From a virus, in the IMG/VR virus record IMGVR_UViG_3300009032_000004, positions 1 through 45,202 of that record: DNA of 45,202 bases. One strand, given 5' to 3'. The position numbers and the translations under genes are program-made. A model generated the notes under the pieces. It was not told the DNA's origin and did not search any database. It saw nothing but the letters and a program-made list of their open reading frames with translations. Shown here piece by piece: positions 7,219 to 42,349 of this stretch. Within the stretch, counting starts at the first letter, position 1. Every line of letters starts with the position of its first letter.

Positions 7219-7445
7219 TCCCGCTATCCGACATAATTCCTTCCCCGCGATTCTTGGCCGAGCAAAAAACCCGCGACGCGAAATATGAGGCAGCGTGTGC
7301 CGAAGCCCGTTACCTAGAATTCGTCGCAACCCTGCGTGTTCAAAATCGGGCGTACTGGCAGAAGTATTTTGGCGATGATCCGCCCGTTAATGAAGTCTCG
7401 TGGTTTGCTACGCACCAATACTTGGAAAAACCTGCCCACAAGTGA
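7215..7445 (+). CDS. Hypothetical protein (76 aa) coupled to the exonuclease gene
   Basis: Starts in an ATGA overlap with the exonuclease gene and encodes MIPLSDIIPSPRFLAEQKTR and a helical remainder with several aromatic residues (NRAYWQKYFGDD). The overlap and good coding character support it. Function unknown; a recombination accessory role is only suggested by position. Confidence 0.55.
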   Translation: MIPLSDIIPSPRFLAEQKTRDAKYEAACAEARYLEFVATLRVQNRAYWQKYFGDDPPVNEVSWFATHQYLEKPAHK

Positions 7446-7459
7446 GTGGCCTAAAAAAT

Positions 7460-8899
7460 ATGAAATATACCCTGACCGAAAAACACCGCGCACAGTTAAA
7501 GCCTTGGGCGGACAAATGGATTGCCAACGCCATGAGCACAAAGGCGATGGACGATGCCGAGCGCGAGATTTGCCGTCAGGCAGTTGTTGAACTGTATGCT
7601 GCGGCGGGGAAAAAGGCACCCCGCGTGGTGTTCGTGCCTTCGCCGTTCGCAGCACGTTTCGCGGCCGGTTTTGCCGCAGCTATTTGGAAGACGAGAAAGA
7701 ATCGCTACAAAACTTTTGACGCCACGTTAAAAGCAACGCAGGCCGCAACGTCTGACGCAACGTCTGCCGCAACGGATGCCGCAACGGCGGCCGCGACGCG
7801 TGCCGCCACGTATGACGCGACGGCTGTCGCGATAGCTGCCGCGACGGATGCCGCGACGGATGCCGCGACGGATGCCGCGACGGATGCCGCGACGCATGCC
7901 GCCACGCATGCCGCCACGCAGGACGCAACGCAGGCCGCAACGCAGGACGCAACGTCTGACGCAACGTCTGCCGCGACGGCTGCCGCCACGCATGCCGCCA
8001 CGGTTGCCGCCACGTCTGACGCCACGTATGACACCACGTATGACACCACGTCTGCCGCGACGGCTGCCGCCACGGTTGCCGCAACGGCTGCCGCAACGCA
8101 GGACGCAACGTATGATGCAACGGCTGCCGCAACGGATGCCGTAACGCAGGACTTAACCACGCGGGAGGATTATTCCCTCTGGTATGTCGTCCCCGGGATG
8201 AAACAGATTGTGGCTTTTGGCGCATCCCTCGCAGCATATTCCCTGGCTTTAATTTTTGCTCAGGAAATCTGGAAATCCCGACAGGGCGGAAACACATGGT
8301 CTGGATGGTCGGCGTACTTGTCTTTTTTCCGTTATGTGGCCAAACTCCCCATCGATTACTCCAAGTGGGATAGTTTTGAAAAACTATCTGAGCATTCGGG
8401 AATCCGCTTTGTTCACGAAAAATTTTGCATCATTTCAGACCGCCCCAAAACCCTGCTCGTAGACGCCCAGAATCGCCCGCATTGCGACACCGGACCGTTT
8501 TGTGAGTGGCGCGACGGCAGCCAGCTCTACGCCTTGCATGGGGTGCACATACCTGCCCATTACGTGCTGACGCCCGCCGAGAAAATATCCCCCGCCGCGA
8601 TTATGGCCGAAACGAATGTGGAAATTCGGCGCGAGCTAATCCGCAAAGTCGGCATCGAAATGATGCTCTCCAAACTGCCCCACAAAATTTTAGATCGACA
8701 GGGAGACTACGAGCTCCTGTCTATCGATTTTACCGGCCTCACCCAAGACGCTCGCTACCTCAAAATGCTCAACCCATCAATTGGCACTTGGCATGTCGAA
8801 GGCGTCGCCCGCGAGTGTGCCACCGTGCAACAGGCGATCAACTGGCGGGCTGGCGACATGGCCAATGTCGCGAGCTGGAACCCGGAGCAACTCACGTGA
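7460..8899 (+). CDS. Tetrapeptide-repeat protein with C-terminal DUF6745-like domain
   Basis: 479 residues in three parts. Residues 1-90 are helical. Residues ~90-233 are about 36 tandem tetrapeptides of the form A-T-X-(A/D), for example DAATDAATDAAT. The C-terminal ~240 residues are globular and end with the pattern SKLPHKILDRQGDYELLSID, RYLKMLNPSIGTWHVEG and CATVQQAINW, which I recognise as DUF6745-like. Members of that family often carry such short repeats, and their function is unknown. The start at 7460 follows an A-rich stretch (CTAAAAAAT); the ATG at 7400 lies within the previous gene. The open frames opposite the repeats are artefacts of the repeat. Confidence 0.65.
   Translation: MKYTLTEKHRAQLKPWADKWIANAMSTKAMDDAEREICRQAVVELYAAAGKKAPRVVFVPSPFAARFAAGFAAAIWKTRKNRYKTFDATLKATQAATSDATSAATDAATAAATRAATYDATAVAIAAATDAATDAATDAATDAATHAATHAATQDATQAATQDATSDATSAATAAATHAATVAATSDATYDTTYDTTSAATAAATVAATAAATQDATYDATAAATDAVTQDLTTREDYSLWYVVPGMKQIVAFGASLAAYSLALIFAQEIWKSRQGGNTWSGWSAYLSFFRYVAKLPIDYSKWDSFEKLSEHSGIRFVHEKFCIISDRPKTLLVDAQNRPHCDTGPFCEWRDGSQLYALHGVHIPAHYVLTPAEKISPAAIMAETNVEIRRELIRKVGIEMMLSKLPHKILDRQGDYELLSIDFTGLTQDARYLKMLNPSIGTWHVEGVARECATVQQAINWRAGDMANVASWNPEQLT
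7729..8156 (+). repeat. 12-base tandem repeat coding for A-T-X-(A/D)
   Basis: Degenerate 12-base units of the form ACG-NNN-GCC/GAC-GCN run in frame for about 430 bases. Local blocks are nearly identical (four successive copies of GCGACGGATGCC around 7850-7890), pointing to recent slippage or unequal exchange. All units stay in frame, so length variation would not disrupt the protein. Confidence 0.85.
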
Positions 8900-19604: not shown

Positions 19605-20672
19605 ATGCACCTACTCACCCTTACCGAAAGGACAAACCTTGGGAGCCAGATTGGATGGATTGAACCTGGCTCATGGCTCGTTCACGATCTAAATGCCTTC
19701 GAGATTGCGATGATTGCGGCACGGGGAACTGCGACGGTTTCCAACTTTGGGTGGAAGACGTGGGCCAACCCCGACAAGGGCGTCCTGTTTATGCGGAGCG
19801 GGGCCATTGGGGATTTGATGATGCTGATGCCCGTGCTGGCGGCGTGGAAGGACAAGACGCACGAGAAAGTGAGCCTTTGCTGCTTCCCTCACCATTTCCC
19901 TTTATTTGAAGGCTCAGACCTAGTGGATGAACTTGTGCCGTATCCGATGAACTTCAATCGGGTGAACCACTTCATGGATATTATCTCCATGGAGAACACG
20001 ATGGAAGCCGACCATGAACACCATGCGACGGACGTGTTCGCAAAGGCACTTGGGATTAATACGCCCTTAGCGAACTATCGCCCTGTCCTTAATCTCACCG
20101 AGGAGGAACTGGCGGCTGGCAAGAAAGAGGTTTTTGGGGCACGGCCAACGGTTGCCGTGCAGATGCGGGCGTCGGTAGCTAACCGGGATTACCCTGCGAA
20201 GCGTTGGCTGGAAACTATCGTGAAGCTTGAGGAGCGGGGATGGGGCGTGGTATTTCTAGCCAAGAAGGGCCAGCTTCCGCCATTCCCGGCCCAGTTCCAG
20301 ACTCCGTTCATCCGTGATCTGTCCATCCTAGACCTGACGATCCGCCAGTCGGCGGCGGTCTTGGCAAACTGCGATGCGTTCCTAGGGGTGGATTCAGGGT
20401 TCTCACACATCGCCCACGCGCTCGATATTCCGAGCGTCGGACTTTACGGGCCATTCCCTTGGCAAATTAGAGTCGCAGCCAACCAACGAATGACGGCGAT
20501 CAGCGGAAAGGGCGACTGCGCCGGTTGCTGCTGGCACACCCACAATGGAAACGCCTTTCCGCCAAACAAGCCCTGTTCCAAGATCGGGGTGTGTGTCGTC
20601 CTCGACTCGATTGAGCCCGACCGGATTTGCGCGAAGATGGAACTTCTAAAACCCGAAAAATGCCGGAAGTAA
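19605..20672 (+). CDS. GT9-type glycosyltransferase (heptosyltransferase-like)
   Basis: 355 residues with the GT-B layout of family 9. The N-terminal domain has FMRSGAIGDLMMLMPVLAAW, the family glycine loop (GxGD). The C-terminal domain has VAVQMRASVANRDYPAKRW and LGVDSGFSHIAHALDIPSVG, matching the sugar-nucleotide binding motif (DSGxxHxAxAxxxPxxxLxGP). Members transfer heptose or a related sugar from a nucleotide donor. A late Cys cluster (KGDCAGCCWHTHNGNAFPPN) is unusual for the family. It is the first gene of a tightly overlapping plus-strand operon inserted among minus-strand virion genes. Confidence 0.8.
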   Translation: MHLLTLTERTNLGSQIGWIEPGSWLVHDLNAFEIAMIAARGTATVSNFGWKTWANPDKGVLFMRSGAIGDLMMLMPVLAAWKDKTHEKVSLCCFPHHFPLFEGSDLVDELVPYPMNFNRVNHFMDIISMENTMEADHEHHATDVFAKALGINTPLANYRPVLNLTEEELAAGKKEVFGARPTVAVQMRASVANRDYPAKRWLETIVKLEERGWGVVFLAKKGQLPPFPAQFQTPFIRDLSILDLTIRQSAAVLANCDAFLGVDSGFSHIAHALDIPSVGLYGPFPWQIRVAANQRMTAISGKGDCAGCCWHTHNGNAFPPNKPCSKIGVCVVLDSIEPDRICAKMELLKPEKCRK

Positions 20673-22156
20673 CAGTTTCGATCCTGACTTACTCGCAGCT
20701 CGCGCACGCCAAGCGATGCATTGCCTCCGTTCTGGCCGGTGGCGAAGAGGTAAACCTGATTCTGACAGCAAACGGAAACGCCGAAGCAGCGGCCTATTTT
20801 ACCGAGTTGGCGCAGAACCTGCCGAATGTTCGGGTGGTCGTGAACGCGGCAAACCAAGGATTCTGGAAACCCAACAACCATGCCCTCACGCTGACGGATA
20901 CGCGCTGGCTCGTCCTCCTGAATGATGACGCGATGGTGCCCTATGGCTGGCTCAATAAGCTCAAGCGTCCGTTCCTAGATTATCCTAACGACTCAGTTTT
21001 TTCATGCCCTGATGACGGTTGCTCGGAGTTGCAGGCCAGTTTCCACGGGAAATGGGGAAAGAAGGAATACTGTGAAGGTTCATGCCTGATGATAGACGTG
21101 GTGATTGCGAAGAGGCATGGCCTGTTTGAACCGATGCCAGGGCTTGCCTATGGAGAGGATTCGCACGCGTCCCTGCGGTTCCGTGAACTTGGATATAGGC
21201 TCCACTGGGTTCCGCTACAGATTATCCATGCCCGCGCCCAGACCTCACGAACGGTGCCCGAGGTAAGCCAATGGCAGGAGCAGAATCATCAATTCTTGCG
21301 GAAACGATGGGCGCACTATCTCCTGACTCGTCGTATGGATTACCCTATTGTTATTCGTCGTGGTGGAGCAAACGGCGATGTCTTGCTGACGACCCCGATT
21401 ATCAAGGCACTGCGCAGGGACAAACCCCTGTCCCCAATCTTCGTCGAAACGATTTGCCCAGCAGTCCTTCAGCGTAATCCGAATGTTACCGTCATTGAAC
21501 CTCGCAGCACCCGGCCAAGCGACGCGCTCGTGATTAACTTGGACTTTACTTACGAGGCAAACCCAGCTCAGCACATCGTTGATGCCTACGCGAAGGCGGC
21601 AGAAGTTACGTTGACTGAGTGCAAGACGGAGTTTTTCCCGTCTGACAATGACAAGGGAATGGCGGCATCCCACATTCAGGGAGACTGGGCGGCGGTTCAC
21701 GTTGGTCCCTCGACGTGGCGCAGCAAGGAATGGCCGCAGGATCGGTTTACGGCGGTTATCGAATACCTGCATACGCTCAAAATGAAGGTCGTCCTAGTTG
21801 GCTCAGGCGGAATGCCAGCCCGAGGCGATTTAGATATGCGTGCGCGGACAAGCATCCACGAGATGGGAGCAATCATAGGACGGTGCAAAATATTCATCGG
21901 GCTGGATAGCCTGCCGATGCACATTTCTCAGGCGATGGGGACGCCGACAATTGGCCTTTTTGGAATCACCGACCCGCAATACATCATGACCGACTCCTCT
22001 CCTCACATCGGAGTCTGCGGGCGAGATGCGACATCGTTCGGGCTGCGTCACCGCGTAAACGGAGTCACCGCCGTAGATGACGGCGGGCAAGCGATGAACG
22101 CAATTTCGGTGGATATGGTTAAAGCGGCAATTGACGAACTACTCGCTCCAAAATGA
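20660..22156 (+). CDS. Two-domain GT2-GT9 glycosyltransferase fusion
   Basis: 498 residues. Residues 1-~225 are a GT-A family 2 domain: VTVSILTYSQLAHAKRCIAS, NAANQGFWKPNNHAL, WLVLLNDDAMV (DxD-type motif) and GEDSHASLRFRELGYRLHWV. Residues ~235-498 are a GT-B family 9 domain: RGGANGDVLLTTPIIKALRR, WAAVHVGPSTWRSKEWPQDR and IGLDSLPMHISQAMGTPTIG. The start at 20660 overlaps the previous gene by 13 bases and is preceded by CTAAAACCCGAAAA. A single enzyme that could add two different sugars in sequence is likely; the donors are unknown. Confidence 0.8.
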   Translation: MPEVTVSILTYSQLAHAKRCIASVLAGGEEVNLILTANGNAEAAAYFTELAQNLPNVRVVVNAANQGFWKPNNHALTLTDTRWLVLLNDDAMVPYGWLNKLKRPFLDYPNDSVFSCPDDGCSELQASFHGKWGKKEYCEGSCLMIDVVIAKRHGLFEPMPGLAYGEDSHASLRFRELGYRLHWVPLQIIHARAQTSRTVPEVSQWQEQNHQFLRKRWAHYLLTRRMDYPIVIRRGGANGDVLLTTPIIKALRRDKPLSPIFVETICPAVLQRNPNVTVIEPRSTRPSDALVINLDFTYEANPAQHIVDAYAKAAEVTLTECKTEFFPSDNDKGMAASHIQGDWAAVHVGPSTWRSKEWPQDRFTAVIEYLHTLKMKVVLVGSGGMPARGDLDMRARTSIHEMGAIIGRCKIFIGLDSLPMHISQAMGTPTIGLFGITDPQYIMTDSSPHIGVCGRDATSFGLRHRVNGVTAVDDGGQAMNAISVDMVKAAIDELLAPK

Positions 22157-22914
22157 CTCGCGGAATTTCAGGTTATGTCTGCGTGCGAAACGCCATTCAA
22201 CTGGACTACTGCGTGGTCGAATCAGTGCGGTCCCTTCTTCCCGTTTGCGATGAGGTCGTAGTCTGCGATGGAGAATCTACGGACGGCACGAGAAAGATGA
22301 TCGAGGGAATGGGAGAACCCAAAATCCGCATCCTCGACTACCCATGGGCAAACCCGGACGGAGATTCATCGTTCTGGGTCGAATGGCTCAACTGGGCGCG
22401 GGTGCGCCTGAACTACGATTTCCAGCTCACCCTGGATGCCGACGAAGTGCTAGACCCAGCCGGATACGATGCTATCCGTCTAATGGCGAAGCTTGGAGAG
22501 TGCGGCATCTTCTCGCGGCTTAACTTTTGGCGTGACGCGCAGCACTTGGCTCCCTCCAATCGAGTCTGTGGCGATACCGTCGCGAGGTGCGGCCCAACCT
22601 ACCTTTACTGTCCGTCGGATGAGCCGAATCCAGCCATGACTCCCAACATCCGTACGCACGCATCACTCCACCCAGACCTGCGTATTTTCCACTACGGTTT
22701 CCTCCGGGATAAAAACGCGTTTGTCCGAAAGTCTAAGGCCGTGCAGCAGATGTTCATGGGTTCGTGTGATAGCCGAATCATTGAACAGGAAACGCTGGGC
22801 AAGGACTGGGATGAACGCGATTACTTCGATGGAGAACCGCTCCTCGAATACAACGGCTTGCATCCTGAAGTAGCTCTGTATTGGCTTGCGGCCAGAGGCC
22901 ATAATCTGAAATGA
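22153..22914 (+). CDS. GT2-type glycosyltransferase
   Basis: 253 residues. GYVCVRNAIQLDYCVVESVR followed by CDEVVVCDGESTDGTRKMIE is the standard GT2 nucleotide-binding front. LTLDADEVLDP carries the DxD metal site. The middle has an aromatic acceptor region (FSRLNFWRDAQHL). The gene overlaps its neighbours on both sides by four bases (ATGA). It acts with the two upstream enzymes, probably on the same glycan. Confidence 0.8.
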   Translation: MTRGISGYVCVRNAIQLDYCVVESVRSLLPVCDEVVVCDGESTDGTRKMIEGMGEPKIRILDYPWANPDGDSSFWVEWLNWARVRLNYDFQLTLDADEVLDPAGYDAIRLMAKLGECGIFSRLNFWRDAQHLAPSNRVCGDTVARCGPTYLYCPSDEPNPAMTPNIRTHASLHPDLRIFHYGFLRDKNAFVRKSKAVQQMFMGSCDSRIIEQETLGKDWDERDYFDGEPLLEYNGLHPEVALYWLAARGHNLK

Positions 22915-23417
22915 GCGGAACCCAAGAACTCTGGTTGGATACAGTTGAGCGAATCACGCGGAAATGCGCCCGTGGAGTTATGGTCTCGGTGTGCTGCGGA
23001 GCGGCGACAGTTGAAAAAAGGCTGGATTTCCCGGTCGTCGAAGCGTGCGACTTAAACGAACCGCCCCAGCCCCTGCCCGACCACTGGCGTTTTACCCAGC
23101 GTTCCGCCATCCCCTTTCTCGAAGCCTTTCCATGCAAATACGCCGATCTGGTAATTTGCTCGGATGGCCTTGAGCATTTCACGCGGGCACAAGGGCTTCT
23201 GCTGCTTCGGCAGATGGAGCGAGTTGGGAAGCACGCGATCATCTTCACGCCGACCGGGGACACGACATTCAATCCCGAGTCCACCGAACCCCACGACCAC
23301 AAGAGCAGTTGGAGTGCGACGGACTTCGCCAAGCTCGGCTGGGAGTCCGACCACTTTCCAGACTGGCATCCGACCATAGGTTGGGGCGCCCTCTTCGCTT
23401 GGTCACAGATTTCCTAA
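22911..23417 (+). CDS. SAM-dependent methyltransferase-like protein (168 aa)
   Basis: A short Rossmann-like protein. VMVSVCCGAATVEKRL stands where motif I (GxGxG) is expected, with CCGA as a degenerate version. VVEACDLNEPPQPLPD is a plausible acidic motif II. CKYADLVICSDGLEHFTRAQ matches motif IV of class I methyltransferases. The end is short, so the substrate domain is minimal. Start in an ATGA overlap with the glycosyltransferase gene. It probably methylates a sugar or a peptide in the same pathway. Confidence 0.6.
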   Translation: MSGTQELWLDTVERITRKCARGVMVSVCCGAATVEKRLDFPVVEACDLNEPPQPLPDHWRFTQRSAIPFLEAFPCKYADLVICSDGLEHFTRAQGLLLLRQMERVGKHAIIFTPTGDTTFNPESTEPHDHKSSWSATDFAKLGWESDHFPDWHPTIGWGALFAWSQIS

Positions 23418-23989
23418 TGAGCTACATCAAATACAAGACGCCAACGGCGAATGAATTTAAGGAGTTTTCTTCCGAGACGGCAAAATACAGGCACATCTGC
23501 GCCCCATACTGCGCGGGAGTCGGGGTTGACATCGCATCGCAGGGTGTTCAGGTCGTTCCATGGGCGGTCTCGTTCGACCTGCCAGAGAAGGAGTTTCTTC
23601 ACTACTCGTCCGGTCAGCCGGCCAAGGGGCCGATTCACCTTCGCGGGCAATGCACCGAACTCCCCTTCGAGACGGCCAGCTTGGATTTCCTTTACGCCTC
23701 GCACATCCTTGAGGACTTTGAGGATTGGGTTCCCGTCATTGCCGAGTGGTCACGCTGCGTCCGTGTCGGCGGGAACCTTATCATCCTCATCCCCGACAAG
23801 AAGCTTTGGAGTGAAGCTCTGGCCAAGGGACAAGCGCCCAATTGTTCGCATCGCCACGAAGGACACGTCGGCGAGTTATCGAATACCTTTCGCGCTCACT
23901 TCGGGCACTTTGAAATTCTGAAGGACGAACTGACGGCGATCACGCCCGAGGACTACACGATTCTGTTCGTGGCCCGCAGGCTGCGATAA
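23417..23989 (+). CDS. SAM-dependent methyltransferase-like protein (190 aa)
   Basis: ICAPYCAGVGVDIASQGVQV contains a motif-I-like GVGVDIAS. LRGQCTELPFETASLDFLYA followed by SHILEDFEDWVPVIAEWSRC is the motif IV region of class I methyltransferases, and RVGGNLIILIPD is the usual motif VI. Its start overlaps the previous stop. It is the final gene of the operon and converges with the minus-strand virion gene that ends two bases later. Substrate unknown. Confidence 0.7.
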   Translation: MSYIKYKTPTANEFKEFSSETAKYRHICAPYCAGVGVDIASQGVQVVPWAVSFDLPEKEFLHYSSGQPAKGPIHLRGQCTELPFETASLDFLYASHILEDFEDWVPVIAEWSRCVRVGGNLIILIPDKKLWSEALAKGQAPNCSHRHEGHVGELSNTFRAHFGHFEILKDELTAITPEDYTILFVARRLR

Positions 23990-30266: not shown

Positions 30267-31037
30267 TTAATCAGTCCCTAGACCATAGGTAGCAGCCGAG
30301 GAATTAGGATTCTTTCTAATAAAATCGTCGTAGTTTGTAGAACCCCCTACTCCAGTTTTTTTATTAGAATATTGTCCTGCGATTTTGGTAAGCGAACCCC
30401 AAAGGTCGGCATTCTGAGCATTTCGTTGAGCTGCATCCGCGTTCGCCTGAGCCTGCGAAGTCGCTTGGGTGTTGGAGTTATTTAGGTCCGTAGCGGAGGC
30501 TTGTTGAGAAGGCGTGACATAGAACGAAAGCGGGCTCATCGGATTAATCCTAGGTGAATTATTTACGAGCGTGCTCGAAAGGGTCTGCGCCTGATTGATG
30601 GCCGTCTGACCGTATTGGAGTTGGTTCACTCCAAGGTCACGCAGCAGAGAAAAGTCGTTAAACTGACCACGGGTTCCAGCAGAAATTCCACGTTCGGCAG
30701 CGATTCGTGCTAAATTATCCTGAACCTCTTTGGGAACATCGTAGGGATGATCGGCCAATTGTTGAGCCCGATTCGTCAAAGACTCAGATAACTTTGTGTA
30801 TCCAGGCATCGTTTGCTCTGCGAGTGACTTGGCTTGCGATGCATTAAACGCGTTACCACGTGATACCAAAGCTTCGATTGAACTCTGATTGGCCATGTTC
30901 CCTTCCACGGCACGAGTTTGCTCATCCTGCAAATTTAGCGTGCCCTGTGCCATGCTCTTGGCCCCCTTTGGGGCGGCCATATATGAGCCTACGCCACTGG
31001 CTACGGCTCCAAGTGCTGCTACCCATACCTCAGACAT
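30267..31037 (-). CDS. Internal virion-type protein (256 aa)
   Basis: Begins WVAALGAVASGVGSYMAAPK, a small-residue hydrophobic segment like that of podovirus ejection proteins. A helical middle follows (QSSIEALVSRGNAFNASQAK) and then an Asn/Gln/Ala-rich region (QATSQAQANADAAQRNAQNA). Proteins of this layout recur in environmental short-tailed phages beside the ejection genes. It overlaps the upstream gene by eight bases. Likely part of the ejected core. Confidence 0.55.
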   Translation of the reverse strand: MSEVWVAALGAVASGVGSYMAAPKGAKSMAQGTLNLQDEQTRAVEGNMANQSSIEALVSRGNAFNASQAKSLAEQTMPGYTKLSESLTNRAQQLADHPYDVPKEVQDNLARIAAERGISAGTRGQFNDFSLLRDLGVNQLQYGQTAINQAQTLSSTLVNNSPRINPMSPLSFYVTPSQQASATDLNNSNTQATSQAQANADAAQRNAQNADLWGSLTKIAGQYSNKKTGVGGSTNYDDFIRKNPNSSAATYGLGTD

Positions 31038-32064
31038 GGGACACCTCTTTTACGGCTTGGCGCATATCTCGGTAGTTCACGGTGATTTCTTCCTCGGGTT
31101 CGATGGTTTGGGTGGAAATAAAGTCAACGCCACCACATCCAACCTTGGGTTTAACAGTGGGAGTCAAAGAGTGATTGGCAAACCGGCCCCAATTCGTCCA
31201 TCGGCCAGAGGTCCACGCTGAAGCGATTGGTTCATCGGGTTTGATGACTTTAGAAGCAAACACGCCGACCCCATCTATATCTGAGGACTTAACCTTGATC
31301 CAATCATTTGGACAATCGATGAAATCGGTCTTGGCTCGGTCCATATCGGACTGCGTCAGGCCAAGTTCTTTAACAAACTCCTGAAAGTCGGCGCGATCCT
31401 GTTCGATTCCTTCCTTCACGGATGGGCTGCGGGACGGGAGATTCAATTCCTTGTTCAGCGTCTCAATCGTGTGGAAGTGACAGCCCCAGATCATGCGGCC
31501 ATCCTCAACGGTCGTTCCCATGCCATGTTTCGGGAAGCGGGAATGAAACAGTGGGGCGTGGAAAATCACAGCGCGGTTGAAAAGGCCCCGAACGAAATCG
31601 AGTTGTTCCCAAACCTTCTCATCTCCATCGACCATCTCGCGGCCCAGTTGGTCAATTATTCCGTCGCTCCGCATCTCCGAAAAACTTGGCATCTCGGTCA
31701 TTCCCGTTTTCCGGTGACGGTAAAAACCAGTTCCGCTGATTTCATCGTGATCGGACAGGTAAACGAGGCACGTATAAGCCCCATCGTTACGGTCGGAATG
31801 CACGTAAGCCTTCTCCGTGTCTTTGTTCGTCACGCGGGCGAACATGCTGTTAGGAAAAATCGGACCACCCATCACCACCGTCAAAGCTCCCAAAAGATAC
31901 GAGTGCAGGCCGGTGTAGTTCATCCCTTCGTAGATCGAACTCCCTACCAGACCCTTGTTCGGCGTCCATTTGCCAAACCCAGACTGTAAAAACGACTCAC
32001 GCACTTCTGCCGTCTTCGTGCAGAAGTTGTCGTAAACACGGATGCTTTGCTTTTGGACCTTCAT
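31030..32064 (-). CDS. Fe(II)/2-oxoglutarate dioxygenase-like domain fused to a SET domain
   Basis: 344 residues. The N-terminal ~200 resemble DUF6445/2OG-type oxygenases: H89-x-D91 (AYVHSDRNDGAYTCLVYLSD) gives two iron ligands, the family GTGFYRH stretch follows at ~111-117, and H174 in NRAVIFHAPLFHSRFP is the third ligand with R176 for 2-oxoglutarate. Residues ~255-335 form a SET methyltransferase domain: DGVGVFASKVIKPDEPI, GRFANHSLTPTVKP (N297-H298-S299 motif) and EEEITVNYRDM with catalytic-type Tyr331. Each domain is known, but I do not recall this fusion. It lies between a fibre-like gene and the internal virion genes with one-base and eight-base overlaps. Likely it hydroxylates and methylates a protein, perhaps a virion protein. 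Confidence 0.7.
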   Translation of the reverse strand: MKVQKQSIRVYDNFCTKTAEVRESFLQSGFGKWTPNKGLVGSSIYEGMNYTGLHSYLLGALTVVMGGPIFPNSMFARVTNKDTEKAYVHSDRNDGAYTCLVYLSDHDEISGTGFYRHRKTGMTEMPSFSEMRSDGIIDQLGREMVDGDEKVWEQLDFVRGLFNRAVIFHAPLFHSRFPKHGMGTTVEDGRMIWGCHFHTIETLNKELNLPSRSPSVKEGIEQDRADFQEFVKELGLTQSDMDRAKTDFIDCPNDWIKVKSSDIDGVGVFASKVIKPDEPIASAWTSGRWTNWGRFANHSLTPTVKPKVGCGGVDFISTQTIEPEEEITVNYRDMRQAVKEVSHV

Positions 32065-32828
32065 CAGCTCTTGAGCAACCGGAAGTAGATTTTCGACGCC
32101 TGCCGCACATCCACGTCAATCTGCGTGTTGGGATTGAGCGGACCGCTGTTCATCGTAGCACTAGACCCAAGGCCAGTAACAATGGGGTTAATGCCAAGGG
32201 GTTGAGGCCCGTTCTGGAATGATCCAGAATATACTCCCACGCCAGAGGCCAACTTAATCGTATCGGGCGGAAGGTTGTCCTGAGTAAGCGTAACCGCATC
32301 GGCCCCAACGGAGTCATTGTAGTCCGACCCATCGGCCAAAGCTCCGATGATAACCATGCCGATTGAGGCCGTGTCCTGCACCCAGCCCGGATTGCGGGTC
32401 AGCGCCTCGGTAAGCGACGTGGCTTTTACTTCCTTTATGTCGCCAGGGCTACCGGACGCCGTGACCCAAGACGAACCCGTGTAAAGCAGAAGAACGTCGA
32501 TGTCGGTGTCGTAGTAAAGCTGGGACAGGATAGGCGGATTGGGGCGATTCGCTGTCGTTCCGCTCTCAGGGGTGATTGGTGAAGGAGCCCAAGCTGAACC
32601 ATTCCATGAATACGCGCCAATTGGGTTCCCGGAAGCGTCCGTCTTGAACCAAGGACGGTCACGATTCTCAGGAGTTGGCTCAACGTCGCCGTAGTTTATC
32701 CCGGAAAATGGGTTTAGCCCTACGATGGCCTCGTATTGCGCGACCAAATTGAGCAATCCCTGAACCGTTCCGGGAAACTCCGTCCCAGATGGGACCGTTA
32801 GGGCTTGGAGTTCGGCGTTTAGAGACAT
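32064..32828 (-). CDS. Tail fibre / collar-type protein (254 aa)
   Basis: Repeated Gly/Pro/Ser/Tyr stretches (YSWNGSAWAPSPITPESGTT; LYYDTDIDVLLLYTGSSW) form a fibre shaft. The C-terminal half (GMVIIGALADGSDYNDSVGA, AVTLTQDNLPP) has the pattern of phage tail-collar domains. The last segment ends in IDVDVRQASKIYFRLLKS, typical of a collar C-terminus. It overlaps the dioxygenase-SET gene by one base. Confidence 0.6.
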   Translation of the reverse strand: MSLNAELQALTVPSGTEFPGTVQGLLNLVAQYEAIVGLNPFSGINYGDVEPTPENRDRPWFKTDASGNPIGAYSWNGSAWAPSPITPESGTTANRPNPPILSQLYYDTDIDVLLLYTGSSWVTASGSPGDIKEVKATSLTEALTRNPGWVQDTASIGMVIIGALADGSDYNDSVGADAVTLTQDNLPPDTIKLASGVGVYSGSFQNGPQPLGINPIVTGLGSSATMNSGPLNPNTQIDVDVRQASKIYFRLLKS

Positions 32829-33615: not shown

Positions 33616-33960
33616 TTATATTATACGGCCATTGCCGTTCCATAGATTATTGGTTGAGGTGTAATTAAGGACGGTAATCGTTCCCGTCGAGTAAGATTCG
33701 AAATCGTCCCAAGCGTTTCCGTAGTTTGCTTCAAGTAAGGAACCCGCCCCGGCCCACAAGTTGTTAAAGTCTTTGAAGCCGATGGTCGTGATTGTTCCGA
33801 CGGCGTAGGACTCGAAATCGTCATATGCATCGGTATAGAACACAACGGCTGAACCTCCTGCGCTGTTCCAGCCAACCCCACCGGCGTAGGAGAAGATATA
33901 CCCAACTGGATAGGATTCAAAATCATCGTAGGCATCAGTGTAATCCACCGAGATGAACGT
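33616..33960 (-). repeat. Three DDFESY repeats at the C-terminus of the nozzle-like protein
   Basis: Three units of about 35-38 residues, starting near bases 33927, 33822 and 33708, share DAYDDFESY(P/A)VG or DAWDDFESYSTG followed by a NxLWxGxG end in two of them. DNA identity between the unit cores is still visible, so the duplication is fairly recent. Similar FESY motifs open LamG-like sugar-binding modules. Confidence 0.7.
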
Positions 33961-36900
33961 AGCAGGTCCATTCCAGCGATAACCGTATGGGTTATTTGTT
34001 ATCTGGGTCGGGGCGTTATCGGGATATGTCGTCAGATCATCCCAGCAATCTGTGTTAGGGGGAGGAGCGATAAAGGTGATCGGATAGTGCCACGACGAGG
34101 AACTGTCCATGAACCAATACTCGTATGGGGCATAGGAAGACCAATTCTCGAATACCGACTTCTGATAGGTATACATCCAATGCGTCAGGGTAATGACGGC
34201 ATCAGCCACGAAGGGATATTCCACCATGCCATTTACAGTGGAACTCGTAATTTCATAATCTTGGGCAATGAAAAGCTCATAGGGGTCGCCCACATCAGGA
34301 ACGACCGTGAAGGTAAATTCACCCGTGAGGGAGTCGCGGGACTCGTCCACGGGAACCATGAAGATTGCCTGTGTTTTCTGGCCGACGTAGGTGCGCGTCG
34401 TGCCATTAAAGGCGTGCGTCGTCTGAGTCCACGCCGGTGAACCGTATGTGCCAGATCGAGAAATCGGCTTGCCCAAATCCGCCAGAGTTACTGGATTGGT
34501 AAGTTCGGCATACATGCTATGCCCTTGGCAGTTTCCGCTGTCGTAGCCTGCGCCGAATTGCCCGGCAAAATACCCGGAAGGAGCCGTAGGAGTTGTCCAT
34601 GCCCGTATAACCCCGTTTTCGTCAGGGTTCAGGTACTGAGAATATACCGATGCAAAAAATGCCGCCCGCTGGTTAGGTTTAGCGGGGTCAAATAACTGAG
34701 CGAAGAGAGAATTAACACTCCCTCCCGTCAGGGTTAAGAACGTGCCAGGAACACTCTGGAAGTCGTAAGCACCCATGGCGCCGTCACGTTGGAGAATCAC
34801 CTGCAAATCGCCGGTCACGTTACAATCCATGTCGATTGTCGAACTTCCGCTCCAAGTGGTTGAAACGATACCCCACGAACCTGCTGGGGGATAAGGCGTG
34901 CAGTCTTTGGTCAGAATGCTTCCAGCAATGGGAACATACTTGATGAAATTATCACCGGTCGCGCTCTCCGTTTTGTAATAGCGATCCCCGAAGGCCGTCA
35001 TGCACATCGGGTACACGAACGGACCGTCGTATTGACGGAACGAGATGGTTTCTCCGGGGAACTCGGATGAGACCGCTAGCTCAACCTGAATAACCGTGTT
35101 CCCACACATATTGGTCAGGTTGCTGAACGACACTGAACCCGAGTAATCGCCGCTATCCAGCAAGTCTGCGTTCAGTGTGACCGTAACATCAATGGATTGA
35201 CCCGGTTCAATGACCCCGCCCGGATTATCCACTTCCAGCCAAGAATCGGAGGGAGTCGCCGACCAGTTGTAGGCCGTCGCGCTTAAATTGCGGATATTAT
35301 AGACGGCACTCGACGGTGAGAATGGTCCACCCAAACCGCCAGAGACGTTGAAGGGATCCGGGGGAGTGACAAAGACGTATCCGCTCGCGGTCGGGATGGA
35401 GTAGGAAATCTCGTTCCCCGTGACATCGTTTTCGATGCAGAGGGGTGATAGTGCCTCGCGGAAAGCGTAATCTGGGTCAGGAAGTTCAGTCCCGTATAAA
35501 GCCATCTTCTCGACTTGGGCTTTACCAGTCCATTCGAGGCGAATTTGGAACTGGAAACCAATTTGGAGTCCATACCGCGTAACTTCGTCGATGCCATCTG
35601 GAATCGTGAACGTCTTAATCTGCGGGCGCTGCTCAGGAAGCAGGTTTTTCCACGTGTGGGGCGTGCTAGTAGCAGCATCTGTGACTTTAGCGCAGACGGC
35701 AACTTCATCCCATTTCGTCCACTTCTGGGTGTTGTCGGTGCGCCAGTACGCCGTCATATTAAACTCGGCCTCCAGTCCTGAAAGCCAAACGTCGCACCGC
35801 TCCAGACGTTTACGGCGGTTCTCGGTTCCGAAGTTGATGGACGGATATTCAACGAAGCACTTGATCGGGCTGATTGTCTCAAGCCCCGAGCCGCATGATA
35901 GAGAAATATCATCCCGGCCTCGTCCCTCTGGGAGCATCTCCCAAATCCGGTTAATGCCTTCCTCATCTGAGGTAATTGCAAAGGCCCGGTTCATCCCGTT
36001 GAAATCTCCCGTCACCAGTTGGGCGACTCCAGGAAGTCCGGTCCACTGCCCGTCATAGGCTGGAGGAGCCTTCATCTGCATCGTGGAGATCGGGGCAAAA
36101 TCCAGACTTACGATGTCTTTGAAGGAGATGCCGCCCGATACATTCAGATAGGGCGAAGCTGTCATCAGCAGGCGATTATCGAAGTAAACCGAGGAAACCC
36201 ACGGAAGTAGTTTCTCCGAATCGTATGCAACAATCCGTGACACTTCACGGGAAATAGGAGTAGAGCCGGGGGAATTTTGCGTGGAAATCGAATTCTGGAG
36301 AGAACGGATGTTGCCGTGAGAATCACGCCAGTAGAGGTCTTGATTCACTTGGGCGATGCCCCAGTCCCCAGATGCTCCGATATCGCGGAATACATTGGTT
36401 ACGAATCCAGCCATCTGCGCCCAAGAGTCGCGGGACGTAACATCAGCACGGATAGACTCGGCGTAATCAGGGCCAAACACCATCAGCGTTCCGAAGTCAG
36501 CCGCACCTGTAACTGGGATAAAGTCCAATCCCGTGATGCCGCGAGAGAAATAGAGTGATCCGCCGCCAGAGAGATAATTTGTCTCCGTGAATTTCAACTC
36601 TGAACCGGGATCCCGGGTGCGAATATCGCCCGCCACGAGTTCGCGAAGATTGATTGCAACCCAGAGACGGCCATTGCCGTAGGCCATCATTCTTCCACGT
36701 GGAACTTCATCAGACGTGGCACGCCGAGCGGTTCCGCCATTATAGATGATTGGATCTGATTGGCCGTCCTGAATAATGAGCGATTCGACGGTCTGTTGCA
36801 TCCACGCCTGTTTGATGATTGGCGAGTTGACGAAACTCAGCGGGATTGGCTCCCATGAGTAAATATTCGCGCCAATGCGGACTCGGTAGAGCCGACCACC

Positions 36901-37134
36901 GATCATGGTGACGATCATTCCGCCCTGAACGCCGAAGTATGAGGTGCATTGGTGAAGTCCTTGGGGAAGGCCGCAGGAAAGCTCTACGAAGGGAGGGCGG
37001 GTATGTGGTTTCCCGCCGCGAACAGCGACATCAAAGCCCCACGCAAATTGTCCACCGGGAAGCAACTGCGGAGAAACCGCAGACGAAACGCCTCCGGGGC
37101 AGGTTGAGAATCCAGTTGGTATCCAAGTGGCCAT
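33616..37134 (-). CDS. Large tail nozzle-like protein with BACON-like and repeat modules (1172 aa)
   Basis: Residues 1-~430 look like the beta-propeller platform of a podovirus tail nozzle: RPPFVELSCGLP, YFGVQGGMIVTMIGGRLYRV, QTVESLIIQDGQSDPIIYNG, YGNGRLWVAI, VFGPDYAESIR. Residues ~605-690 are an Ig-like BACON-type domain (DSWLEVDNPGGVIEPGQSID, LLDSGDYSGSVSFSNLTNMC). A long beta-rich part follows, ending in three repeats around DA(Y/W)DDFESY with N(N)LW (residues ~1058-1172). It sits just after the adaptor gene, as the nozzle does in T7-like phages. The extra domains are not part of a normal nozzle and may contact host surface sugars. Confidence 0.6.
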   Translation of the reverse strand: MATWIPTGFSTCPGGVSSAVSPQLLPGGQFAWGFDVAVRGGKPHTRPPFVELSCGLPQGLHQCTSYFGVQGGMIVTMIGGRLYRVRIGANIYSWEPIPLSFVNSPIIKQAWMQQTVESLIIQDGQSDPIIYNGGTARRATSDEVPRGRMMAYGNGRLWVAINLRELVAGDIRTRDPGSELKFTETNYLSGGGSLYFSRGITGLDFIPVTGAADFGTLMVFGPDYAESIRADVTSRDSWAQMAGFVTNVFRDIGASGDWGIAQVNQDLYWRDSHGNIRSLQNSISTQNSPGSTPISREVSRIVAYDSEKLLPWVSSVYFDNRLLMTASPYLNVSGGISFKDIVSLDFAPISTMQMKAPPAYDGQWTGLPGVAQLVTGDFNGMNRAFAITSDEEGINRIWEMLPEGRGRDDISLSCGSGLETISPIKCFVEYPSINFGTENRRKRLERCDVWLSGLEAEFNMTAYWRTDNTQKWTKWDEVAVCAKVTDAATSTPHTWKNLLPEQRPQIKTFTIPDGIDEVTRYGLQIGFQFQIRLEWTGKAQVEKMALYGTELPDPDYAFREALSPLCIENDVTGNEISYSIPTASGYVFVTPPDPFNVSGGLGGPFSPSSAVYNIRNLSATAYNWSATPSDSWLEVDNPGGVIEPGQSIDVTVTLNADLLDSGDYSGSVSFSNLTNMCGNTVIQVELAVSSEFPGETISFRQYDGPFVYPMCMTAFGDRYYKTESATGDNFIKYVPIAGSILTKDCTPYPPAGSWGIVSTTWSGSSTIDMDCNVTGDLQVILQRDGAMGAYDFQSVPGTFLTLTGGSVNSLFAQLFDPAKPNQRAAFFASVYSQYLNPDENGVIRAWTTPTAPSGYFAGQFGAGYDSGNCQGHSMYAELTNPVTLADLGKPISRSGTYGSPAWTQTTHAFNGTTRTYVGQKTQAIFMVPVDESRDSLTGEFTFTVVPDVGDPYELFIAQDYEITSSTVNGMVEYPFVADAVITLTHWMYTYQKSVFENWSSYAPYEYWFMDSSSSWHYPITFIAPPPNTDCWDDLTTYPDNAPTQITNNPYGYRWNGPATFISVDYTDAYDDFESYPVGYIFSYAGGVGWNSAGGSAVVFYTDAYDDFESYAVGTITTIGFKDFNNLWAGAGSLLEANYGNAWDDFESYSTGTITVLNYTSTNNLWNGNGRII

Positions 37135-39604: not shown

Positions 39605-42349
39605 TTATCTCGGAAACAGCGGCTGCGGCACACGCTGTGATTTGGACTGAGTTGCAGGCTGGAAACCCTCAGCCGATTCCCCGTAACGCTGCGAAGCCAG
39701 CACCGCTCGACGCCTCGCGTTTGCCCAACGGTCTGCCGTCACTCCTTTTTTTGCCCGGCCCGGCCCGTGTCCCTCGCGGATCAACAGTTCGCCGAATTGC
39801 GTAAAAGCATCGCCGCAATTTTCGACCAGCATCCCATTGGCGTAATAAACGTTATGGTTTGCTACTCGAAGATTGAAGACGATTCGCTTTCCTGATCTTG
39901 GAAACGTTCCATGCGTTGCATTTAGGCGAGCAGGTTTTTGAGTTAGTTTTAACGGACGCGTTCCAATAGCTACCGCAAATTGAGCAAACACGCGGCTCAG
40001 TTTTTGTAGGGTTACGAGCAATCCACGACTTTGATCCGCAGGCTTTTGAACAGAATTTTGCCCGCTTCCAGATAGAGAAGAACTGCTTTTGGCAAACTTC
40101 GCAGTTTTTCGACAGGAGGTTTTTTCTCCTCTCCAAAAAGGTCTTTTGTCCATGCTGTCGGTGCCATTCCAATCCTTCCGGGCTGGAGTGCCATGCCTTA
40201 GCTGCTTCTCGTGCAGAAGGAAGCCAGGCCATGAGTTTGTCGCGGTATCCGGGCTCCTGTAACATCCGGTGCTGAATGTGTAATTTACTGTGCTTGGAAC
40301 GCTCCACCAATTCCAGATTTTCGATTCGGTTATCTTGCCAATCCCCGTTCCGATGATGGACACACAATTTTGGAGCGATTGGGCCAAAGTGTTGAACCCA
40401 GATAACCCGATGTAGAAGTCTTTCTTCGATATTCTTTTGATCGGCTTGGTAATATCGACCCGTCGTTTGAAGGCGAAACTTTCGTCCTTCGTGAAGAATG
40501 CATTTAGGAGGTTCCATAGCCCAATTCTTTTGATAGACTCAATTTCATCAGTCAAAGACAATGAGTCTAATCTAACCCAACCCCTGTTCCAAGTGAAGAT
40601 GCGATGGGATCCCTTCCCGACAAGTTCTCGACCATACGTATTCCTGATTGCCCACAGTTCTGAAGTTTCTGAAGAGATAACCTCCTCAATTGTTTGGTCC
40701 CCCATTGGAGTTGTGACCAAATCTCCAGCCCTAAGCCATTCGATCGGTTTGTCTCCATTTGGCGTGGAAATCACAGTTCCTGCCACAAAGCAGTCAGGGG
40801 ATCGGCCCAGTCTAGCTTTCAACTCATCCTTGGTCTCGGCGACCTGTACCGTCCCCTGCGTCTTTTTCTTAGTAAAATAGCGGCGTGAATAGAGGTCGTC
40901 TGCCGTGAGCGGGTTCAGGTTGGATAGTCCGCCTAGGATGCCCTCTTCGCAGGATACACGGGCACGGAACCATAGCTCTGTGACGAATTTCTCATACACA
41001 TCGCAGCACTTGTCTATGTCTTCGGTCGTCACTGGCCTCTCGGTCGCTGCACCGCCGTAGTCGATACCCTGAACGTCGCGGGACCACTCTTTTTGGAGGA
41101 TGGCGAACACGCCACGGCCACCACCGGACCTGTCCATGATGAAGTTCTTGGGGGTAACACCCATCTGTTTACAGCGATCACGAACCCAGTAGGCGATTTG
41201 GAAGTCCTTGGGCGTCGGGTCGCCCGACTTGAACCTAAAATTCTCACTCTGGGTCCCGCTGATAGCATAACGCCCATCACGCAAAGCACCTTTGTCCCCA
41301 AAATGCATGGCGCAGGCATCGTGCTCAAAAGCGGGGTCAAGAGTGGCGACCGGCTCGGTGCGGAAATCGAAGATGATGGGTGGCTTGGCCTTCTCGATCA
41401 CGCCAGACGGGAAAATGCGGTTTACCAGACCATCGGGCGGAAACCACCCACGAATCTGAGACCACCATTCGACCGAATCCTCGCCGTGGTTCTTCCGCGT
41501 CTCCTCCACGTCAGCCCGACTCAGGATGCCGGTGAAGATTTTCGTCCCTCCCCTCATGTTCGGGCTCTGCAATCCATCGAAATGCAGGCAAATCCCGCCC
41601 TTTTTCGTCACCCACGACAAATCCGTGTCCCGCACCGAACTCCACCCCCCCTCAGGCTCGCAGAAATCACCAAATTTGCTCACTTTCTCGACCGGATTGG
41701 CGAGCATGACGCAGCGGGCGTCCGGGGCGGACATCGGATTGCCCATCGCGTCGAAAATCACCGCATCAATGTCCTCGGCCTCGTCCAAAAACAGGCGGCG
41801 GCGCGGAGCGTGACCACCCTTGATACGACCTGCCGCATCCTGCGTGTGATTTACCGCCATGCCCTGGATTTGAAACTTCTCGCCGGACTCGTGTGACGCG
41901 CTTTCTGGGTAAACCCTCAGTTCATTCGTCGTGCTCCGAACTTGGTAAGCCTGCTGGACGGCAGAAGTCTCAATCGCCCGCAGCAGATCGCTCCACATAC
42001 GGAGCCTCAGGCCCTCGAACGTCACCGTAGCGAACGAAGTCAGGGTCATGTAGGGGTTGGCGCAGTAGTCGAGCCACGCAATATGCGCTGACGTAAACGA
42101 CTTGGACGCACGCCGATGGCCGATCACCGAAATCCACTTATACCGGCACCACGCCTGAATCAGCATTTCGACCCAATCCGACCACTCATAGTTGGGCCAC
42201 ATGATGTGGTAGGCATTCTTAAAGTGCTGCTCAGTCCCTAGCCCGCCATCCGCAGGACCATGCGCGGTACGGTAGCATTGCAGTTCGAGTGCAAGCTTGG
42301 GCGTTCCTTTGGGCACCTTCAGCCCATAGACTTCAACGAACTCGGCCAC
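39605..42349 (-). CDS. terL: Terminase large subunit containing an intein
   Basis: 914 residues including a 325-residue intein. The ATPase part has a Walker A variant GHRRASKSFT (residues 77-86) and Walker B LFLDEAE (D189-E190). The nuclease part has VATLDP (D338), FIMDRSGGG (D406) and, after splicing, RSPDCGDAFT (D519 with D847). Its motor pumps DNA into the head and its nuclease cuts the concatemer. The intein interrupts the last nuclease motif, exactly between D519 and C845. The Walker A motif is unusual (HRRA instead of a Gly-rich loop). The gene sits beside a YegP-like gene and is followed by the tail genes. Confidence 0.9.
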   Translation of the reverse strand: MAEFVEVYGLKVPKGTPKLALELQCYRTAHGPADGGLGTEQHFKNAYHIMWPNYEWSDWVEMLIQAWCRYKWISVIGHRRASKSFTSAHIAWLDYCANPYMTLTSFATVTFEGLRLRMWSDLLRAIETSAVQQAYQVRSTTNELRVYPESASHESGEKFQIQGMAVNHTQDAAGRIKGGHAPRRRLFLDEAEDIDAVIFDAMGNPMSAPDARCVMLANPVEKVSKFGDFCEPEGGWSSVRDTDLSWVTKKGGICLHFDGLQSPNMRGGTKIFTGILSRADVEETRKNHGEDSVEWWSQIRGWFPPDGLVNRIFPSGVIEKAKPPIIFDFRTEPVATLDPAFEHDACAMHFGDKGALRDGRYAISGTQSENFRFKSGDPTPKDFQIAYWVRDRCKQMGVTPKNFIMDRSGGGRGVFAILQKEWSRDVQGIDYGGAATERPVTTEDIDKCCDVYEKFVTELWFRARVSCEEGILGGLSNLNPLTADDLYSRRYFTKKKTQGTVQVAETKDELKARLGRSPDCFVAGTVISTPNGDKPIEWLRAGDLVTTPMGDQTIEEVISSETSELWAIRNTYGRELVGKGSHRIFTWNRGWVRLDSLSLTDEIESIKRIGLWNLLNAFFTKDESFAFKRRVDITKPIKRISKKDFYIGLSGFNTLAQSLQNCVSIIGTGIGKITESKIWNWWSVPSTVNYTFSTGCYRSPDTATNSWPGFLLHEKQLRHGTPARKDWNGTDSMDKRPFWRGEKTSCRKTAKFAKSSSSLSGSGQNSVQKPADQSRGLLVTLQKLSRVFAQFAVAIGTRPLKLTQKPARLNATHGTFPRSGKRIVFNLRVANHNVYYANGMLVENCGDAFTQFGELLIREGHGPGRAKKGVTADRWANARRRAVLASQRYGESAEGFQPATQSKSQRVPQPLFPR
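39818..40792 (-). other. Intein inserted in the terminase nuclease motif
   Basis: Residues 520-844 of the terminase frame. The N-terminal block CFVAGTVISTPNGDKPIEWL starts with the splicing Cys. The Hint fold is followed by the block B-type histidine in GKGSHRIFTWNRGW. The C-terminal block RIVFNLRVANHNVYYANGML is followed by VEN-C, the Asn/Cys junction. The penultimate residue is Glu rather than the usual His. Excision joins RSPD to CGDAFT and restores the nuclease site. A separate HNH gene occupies most of the middle in another frame. Confidence 0.85.
39852..40517 (-). CDS. HNH endonuclease encoded out of frame inside the intein
   Basis: 221 residues on the terminase strand but in a different frame. 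LHRVIWVQHFGPIAPKLCVH and HHRNGDWQDNRIENLELVER form an HNH_3-type domain with the catalytic His and Asn. A helical linker (GLEWHRQHGQKTFLERRKNL) and two C4-type zinc fingers (CEVCQKQF, KFCSKAC; CSICGSYW, TCSPKCN) follow, a layout common for free-standing homing endonucleases. It lies wholly within the intein and would be expected to mobilise it. The in-frame terminase reading of this stretch is Ser/Lys/Arg-rich and looks like a shadow. Confidence 0.75.
   Translation of the reverse strand: MEPPKCILHEGRKFRLQTTGRYYQADQKNIEERLLHRVIWVQHFGPIAPKLCVHHRNGDWQDNRIENLELVERSKHSKLHIQHRMLQEPGYRDKLMAWLPSAREAAKAWHSSPEGLEWHRQHGQKTFLERRKNLLSKNCEVCQKQFFSIWKRAKFCSKACGSKSWIARNPTKTEPRVCSICGSYWNASVKTNSKTCSPKCNAWNVSKIRKANRLQSSSSKP

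Follow-up and report, generated by a model that had tools for sequence, protein, structure and literature searches.

A phage protein joining a DUF6445 (2OG-Fe(II) dioxygenase-like) domain to a minimal SET domain, encoded upstream of a probable DNA-ejection gene

The window, that is, the whole stretch of DNA analyzed here, is a virus record of 45,202 bases from a short-tailed phage. Its minus strand holds an open reading frame that runs from 32064 down to 31030 without an internal stop (cf. Table 1), and the plus strand over the same positions is interrupted by stops. The gene reported there in a preliminary description of this DNA does exist and has to be read on the minus strand. Its start overlaps the stop of a fibre-like gene, and its 3′ end shares 8 bases with the next gene downstream. 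Comparison of the encoded protein with Pfam placed a DUF6445 domain at residues 77-175 (E 1e-9; 39.1 bits versus a curated cut-off of 24) and a SET domain at residues 285-331 (E 4e-9; 37.2 bits versus a curated cut-off of 22.4). Among the PHROGs profiles, residues 3-186 corresponded to phrog_1644, and residues 222-334, which comprise linker and SET sequence, matched phrog_34170 (E 3.5e-14). The fusion had been said to sit between a fibre and an ejection-type gene of a phage structural operon, and both neighbours are indeed so placed. The upstream protein resembles the fibre encoded upstream of DUF6445 in another contig (L240; E 3e-7). The downstream protein yielded no PHROG or Pfam match of its own and a weak profile match (E 0.016); it probably belongs to the ejection family, to which it was assigned mainly by its position and by an overlap like that seen in DUF6445 relatives.

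Table 1. Features of the fusion gene and its two neighbours (positions in the window; aa, residues of the encoded protein)
Feature	Positions	Strand	Basis
DUF6445 (2OG-Fe(II) dioxygenase-like) - linker - minimal SET fusion protein, 344 aa	31030..32064	-	ORF, Pfam, PHROGs
N-terminal 2OG oxygenase (DUF6445) domain, aa 1-199	31468..32064	-	Pfam; AlphaFold; Foldseek
HxD iron ligands H89/D91	31792..31800	-	invariant, 29/29
Distal iron ligand H174	31543..31545	-	invariant, 29/29
R190, probable 2-oxoglutarate-binding arginine	31495..31497	-	invariant, 29/29; predicted role
Helical linker, aa 214-251, common to cupin-SET proteins	31312..31425	-	sequence comparison, model
Minimal SET domain, aa 252-336	31057..31311	-	Pfam; AlphaFold pLDDT 93.1; Foldseek top vSET 3kma
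GVG (aa 265-267), SAM-binding motif	31264..31272	-	G265 61/62, G267 62/62
NHS (aa 297-299)	31168..31176	-	N297 and H298 62/62
T303, in place of Asn of NHSxxPN	31156..31158	-	Asn in 61/62 relatives
Y331, catalytic-type tyrosine	31072..31074	-	62/62
Downstream gene, 256 aa, probable DNA-ejection protein (P22 gp7 / T7 gp14 type)	30267..31037	-	position, 8-bp overlap
Upstream gene, 254 aa, fibre/virion structural-type protein	32064..32828	-	phrog_20787 virion structural protein, E 4e-7

Elsewhere in the window, the minus strand encodes a nozzle-like protein of 1172 residues (33616-37134), with a BACON-type domain just below the cut-off and C-terminal repeats of DAYDDFESY type, and a terminase large subunit of 914 residues (39605-42349) carrying an intein-like insert that starts with CFVAGT, ends with HNVYYANGMLVENC and matches Hint_2 at residues 520-551. 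Within the intein region, a 221-residue HNH-endonuclease-like ORF (39852-40517, minus strand) lies in another frame and overlaps the open terminase/intein frame. The plus strand bears a cassette of glycosyltransferase-like genes with a SAM-methyltransferase-like gene, so named from reading their sequences, that is set within the minus-strand structural block (19605-23989), and a 499-residue ORF containing a long run of AATDAAT-type repeats (7400-8899).

The two halves of the fusion protein were modelled separately; in a combined full-length alignment, the DUF6445 rows had been misplaced. For the N-terminal half, we aligned the window sequence with DUF6445 proteins from cyanophages and IMG/VR contigs, 29 sequences in all. 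H89, D91, H174 and R190 were invariant in 29/29, as were D12, R22, G47, F75, Y102, G111, T112, N163 and G181. The HxD motif and the distal histidine, both recognized in the preliminary description, are thereby confirmed and not lost in close homologs. The arginine that had been coupled to this histidine, R176, did not stand, being common to a close subclade only, whereas R190 is the family-invariant one; judging from the alignment, it is likely R190, not R176, that binds 2-oxoglutarate, a role predicted by analogy with other 2OG oxygenases. H89, D91 and H174 followed by a basic residue make up the pattern, a facial triad and a 2OG-binding position, expected of 2OG-Fe(II) dioxygenases. The AlphaFold model of the domain, obtained with moderate confidence (pLDDT 71.6), has a double-stranded beta-helix fold, and the structural comparison proposed beforehand returned a confident 2OG oxygenase match: Foldseek ranked PHD2/EGLN1 first (E 7e-6, probability 1.00), with PtlH, HygX and other 2OG oxygenases also at probability 1.00. 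A search of PDB sequences with the DUF6445 domain detected no relative. Since motif and predicted fold agree, the assignment of the N-terminal half to the 2OG-Fe(II) dioxygenase family is secure, and its predicted activity is that of such an enzyme.

The C-terminal part (residues 205-344) was modelled with a pLDDT of 93.1, and its best Foldseek match in the PDB was vSET of PBCV-1, followed by SETD8, MLL1 and EZH2 (probability 1.00), again in line with what had been expected. A profile search against PDB sequences aligned two blocks with MLL1, GxG and NHS...Y; about 9 residues separate these blocks in the phage SET as against about 42 in MLL1. The whole phage SET family is missing most of SET-I, a region that contributes to the substrate channel of known enzymes. 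When the window SET was aligned with 62 relatives from phages, S261, G267, G293, R294, N297, H298, E326 and Y331 were invariant in 62/62, and the window keeps all eight. None of the hallmarks listed earlier (GVG, NHS and EEEITVNY with Y331) is missing, and the SAM-signature residues are conserved across the 62 relatives. The threonine of NHSLTPT, which had been flagged for checking, is real. Further departures of the window are R284W (Arg in 55/62), R289W (60/62) and A292W (52/62), and its SET sits on a long branch of the SET-module tree. Both arginines are also missing from the SET of contig L317, the sole other DUF6445-associated SET among the matches listed; this was noticed post hoc, in two sequences. 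By motif and predicted fold, the C-terminal half is a miniature SET domain of the lysine-methyltransferase type, with the corresponding activity predicted. Pfam, PHROGs, AlphaFold and Foldseek agree that two known domains, as first claimed, are present in one phage protein, and these matches lie far beyond chance because Foldseek recovered both folds independently.

A scan of IMG/VR retrieved 406 relatives of the SET module, of which the best 80 were used, and further relatives came from GenBank phages and a few bacterial contigs; podophages commonly carry the module. Among the best 80 of 406, most are cupin-linker-SET proteins; other layouts include the SET-cupin order, neighbouring SET and cupin genes, and SET without a detected cupin on the available stretch. 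Cupin profiles matched nothing in the entire window, so no cupin is fused or adjacent to SET here. The gene directly downstream of SET usually encodes a DNA-ejection protein and often overlaps it (phrog_598, DNA ejection, 33/50; P22_gp7, 11; T7_gp14, 3). With our own profile, which was partly trained on these SET loci and is to that extent circular, an ejection-type gene was found directly downstream in 61/78 and 57/77 loci, the two sets sharing contigs. The ejection proteins that follow SET have Ser at position 2 in 46 of 49 cases despite very low overall identity, and those of the DUF6445-only group have Ala; this residue could matter for N-terminal processing.

The closest stand-alone DUF6445 relatives among the matches listed are 57-66% identical to residues 3-199. 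Close relatives occur, without SET, in the gene order head-closure/nozzle (phrog_578), fibre-like, DUF6445, ejection (phrog_598). In a control independent of the SET loci, an ejection gene was located no more than 1.3 kb downstream in 11/13 scored loci of the window's DUF6445 subclade, versus 0/29 and 3/77 in other DUF6445 sets, the 3 belonging to the same subclade as the window. The terminal overlap with the ejection gene is alike in the window (SHV-stop/MSEVW) and in unfused DUF6445 relatives (SHG-stop/MAEIW), and the SET segment of the window is found between the oxygenase domain and these overlapping codons, fused in frame. In L317, the DUF6445 gene is joined through an ATGA overlap to a separate SET gene, and the ejection gene comes next. 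The window protein is the sole fused DUF6445-SET protein among the matches listed, and a scan of IMG/VR with this single protein found no relative. Most likely, the fusion arose when a SET module, which phages usually pair with a cupin, was joined to a stand-alone DUF6445 gene resident between the nozzle/fibre and ejection genes, L317 being an unfused pair. The placement of the window and L317 in the SET-module tree is not resolved, and both one and two origins of the DUF6445-SET pairing fit it. In two other contigs, genes resembling HNH endonucleases on reading of their sequences are inserted directly after DUF6445 (L315, 4593-5138; L326, 4599-5075).

Genes of the GNAT acetyltransferase type were also encountered in the slot before the ejection gene, one upstream of cupin-SET (L022, 4043-4591; match below the Pfam cut-off) and one after DUF6445 (L240, 1216-1656). 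Because DUF6445, SET and GNAT are all found there, the pre-ejection slot is a repeated home of protein-modifying folds. The notion that the window gene is a plain replacement of T7 gene 13 was weakened, since L022 has both a GNAT-type and a cupin-SET gene; T7 gp13 matched the L022 GNAT protein marginally (E 0.022).

With some reservation, we lean towards a two-domain, late-expressed enzyme that modifies a co-expressed virion protein. The DUF6445 domain would act as a 2OG-Fe(II) dioxygenase and the SET domain as a lysine methyltransferase, both late in infection, and their target would be a virion protein made alongside and altered during assembly by hydroxylation and/or lysine methylation, with the product of the adjoining downstream ejection gene or a tail protein as the most plausible candidates. 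In favour of such an enzyme speak the domains, their folds, the invariant active-site residues, the ejection slot, the split pair in L317, the GNAT genes in the slot and the in-frame fusion with its terminal overlap. Against it stand the downstream ejection proteins, in which we found no conserved target lysine (the best lysine column reaches 35%), the mostly absent SET-I, the moderate pLDDT of the N-terminal model, and the substitutions R284W, R289W, A292W and N303T (Asn in 61/62) together with the long branch. The two-step hydroxylation and methylation put forward in the preliminary description stays a hypothesis. The more specific idea of a podophage virion-maturation slot before the ejection gene, with interchangeable modules (2OG oxygenase, SET, GNAT, cupin) and with a single fused enzyme here hydroxylating and methylating the same virion or ejection protein, is in our opinion rather unlikely.

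The slot may also be structural, since annotations name cupin-only relatives of the usual N-terminal half short tail fibres or adhesins. A mainly structural protein, whose cupin or DUF6445 beta-helix domain would serve as a tail-fibre/adaptor or chaperone module and whose SET would be a binding or structural remnant, is further suggested by the shortened SET core, by cupin metal-type His positions that vary between members and by the name "minor coat protein" given to phrog_1644. A scaffold, however, needs neither the strictly invariant iron/2OG residues of DUF6445 nor SET catalytic-type residues invariant in 62 divergent relatives, and the fibre and coat labels stem from annotation; we consider this role rather unlikely. 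The phrog_1644 label, borne by DUF6445 2OG-oxygenase-like proteins, looks like a misannotation, and members in two cyanophages (L092 and L095; NC_020875 and NC_026923) adjoin thymidylate synthase and PhoH genes.

Nor do we find it probable that the oxygenase works alone in this phage, SET having lost its methyltransferase activity after the loss of its cupin partner: the four substitutions, the long branch and the arginine-less SET of L317 point that way, but all eight invariant residues, N297, H298, E326 and Y331 among them, are kept in an intact ORF with a high-confidence SET fold. SET and 2OG enzymes can have many targets, and the stand-alone DUF6445 of cyanophages occurs among metabolic genes, so that a host protein, modified for host takeover or counter-defence, might be the substrate instead of a virion protein; the position next to the ejection gene, often overlapping it, is conserved across many divergent podophages and points to morphogenesis, and we hold a host target to be quite unlikely. 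An assembly chimera, to which the single fused example among the matches listed might hint, is highly improbable given the intact operon overlaps on both sides, the split DUF6445/SET pair in the same order in an independent contig (L317) and the similar GC of the two halves (0.525 and 0.497).

In eukaryotes, SET and 2OG enzymes carry out lysine methylation and hydroxylation as a classic chemistry of regulation. The modifying-enzyme reading connects this chemistry with a large family of minimal SET proteins from phages that is tied to an ejection gene, here with a 2OG oxygenase in place of the usual cupin, and offers a concrete, testable hypothesis, namely that phages chemically modify their own ejection or tail proteins. 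Cupin-SET, DUF6445 alone, DUF6445 with SET and DUF6445 with GNAT provide natural swaps for comparing function. If true, hydroxylation and methylation of a shared substrate would be a virion chemistry for which we found no description in the open literature searched. In that literature, outside of which most subscription journals lie, we found neither the DUF6445-SET combination nor the conserved association of such modules with the ejection gene.

The window protein is a new architecture of two known families. SET proteins of phages already carry annotations, for instance in BFVD entries and in MW202744, where one is named "pbcV-1 histone H3-lys 27 methyltransferase structure". With the phage cupin-SET proteins (phrog_34170; Rhodoferax phage P26218 gp30, Pseudoalteromonas phage PH1, phage zth2-2), the window protein shares the linker, the minimal SET and, for most of them, the place before a DNA-ejection gene, whereas their N-terminal domain is a cupin and that of the window is a DUF6445 2OG oxygenase. 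Cyanophage and podophage proteins of the DUF6445 (PF20043)/phrog_1644 family have this domain and the invariant HxD...H...R in common with the window but stand alone, without SET. The facial triad of PHD2-type 2OG oxygenases is well established; PHD2/EGLN1 prolyl hydroxylase and the bacterial 2OG oxygenases PtlH and HygX share the predicted fold of the N-terminal domain, with no sequence similarity detectable among PDB chains. The closest solved structure to the SET half is the compact viral SET of PBCV-1 (A612L; PDB 3kma/1n3j), an algal virus protein that stands alone, whereas the SET of the window is fused to an oxygenase, and compared with vSET the phage module has a very short middle, with 28 residues between GxG and GR.
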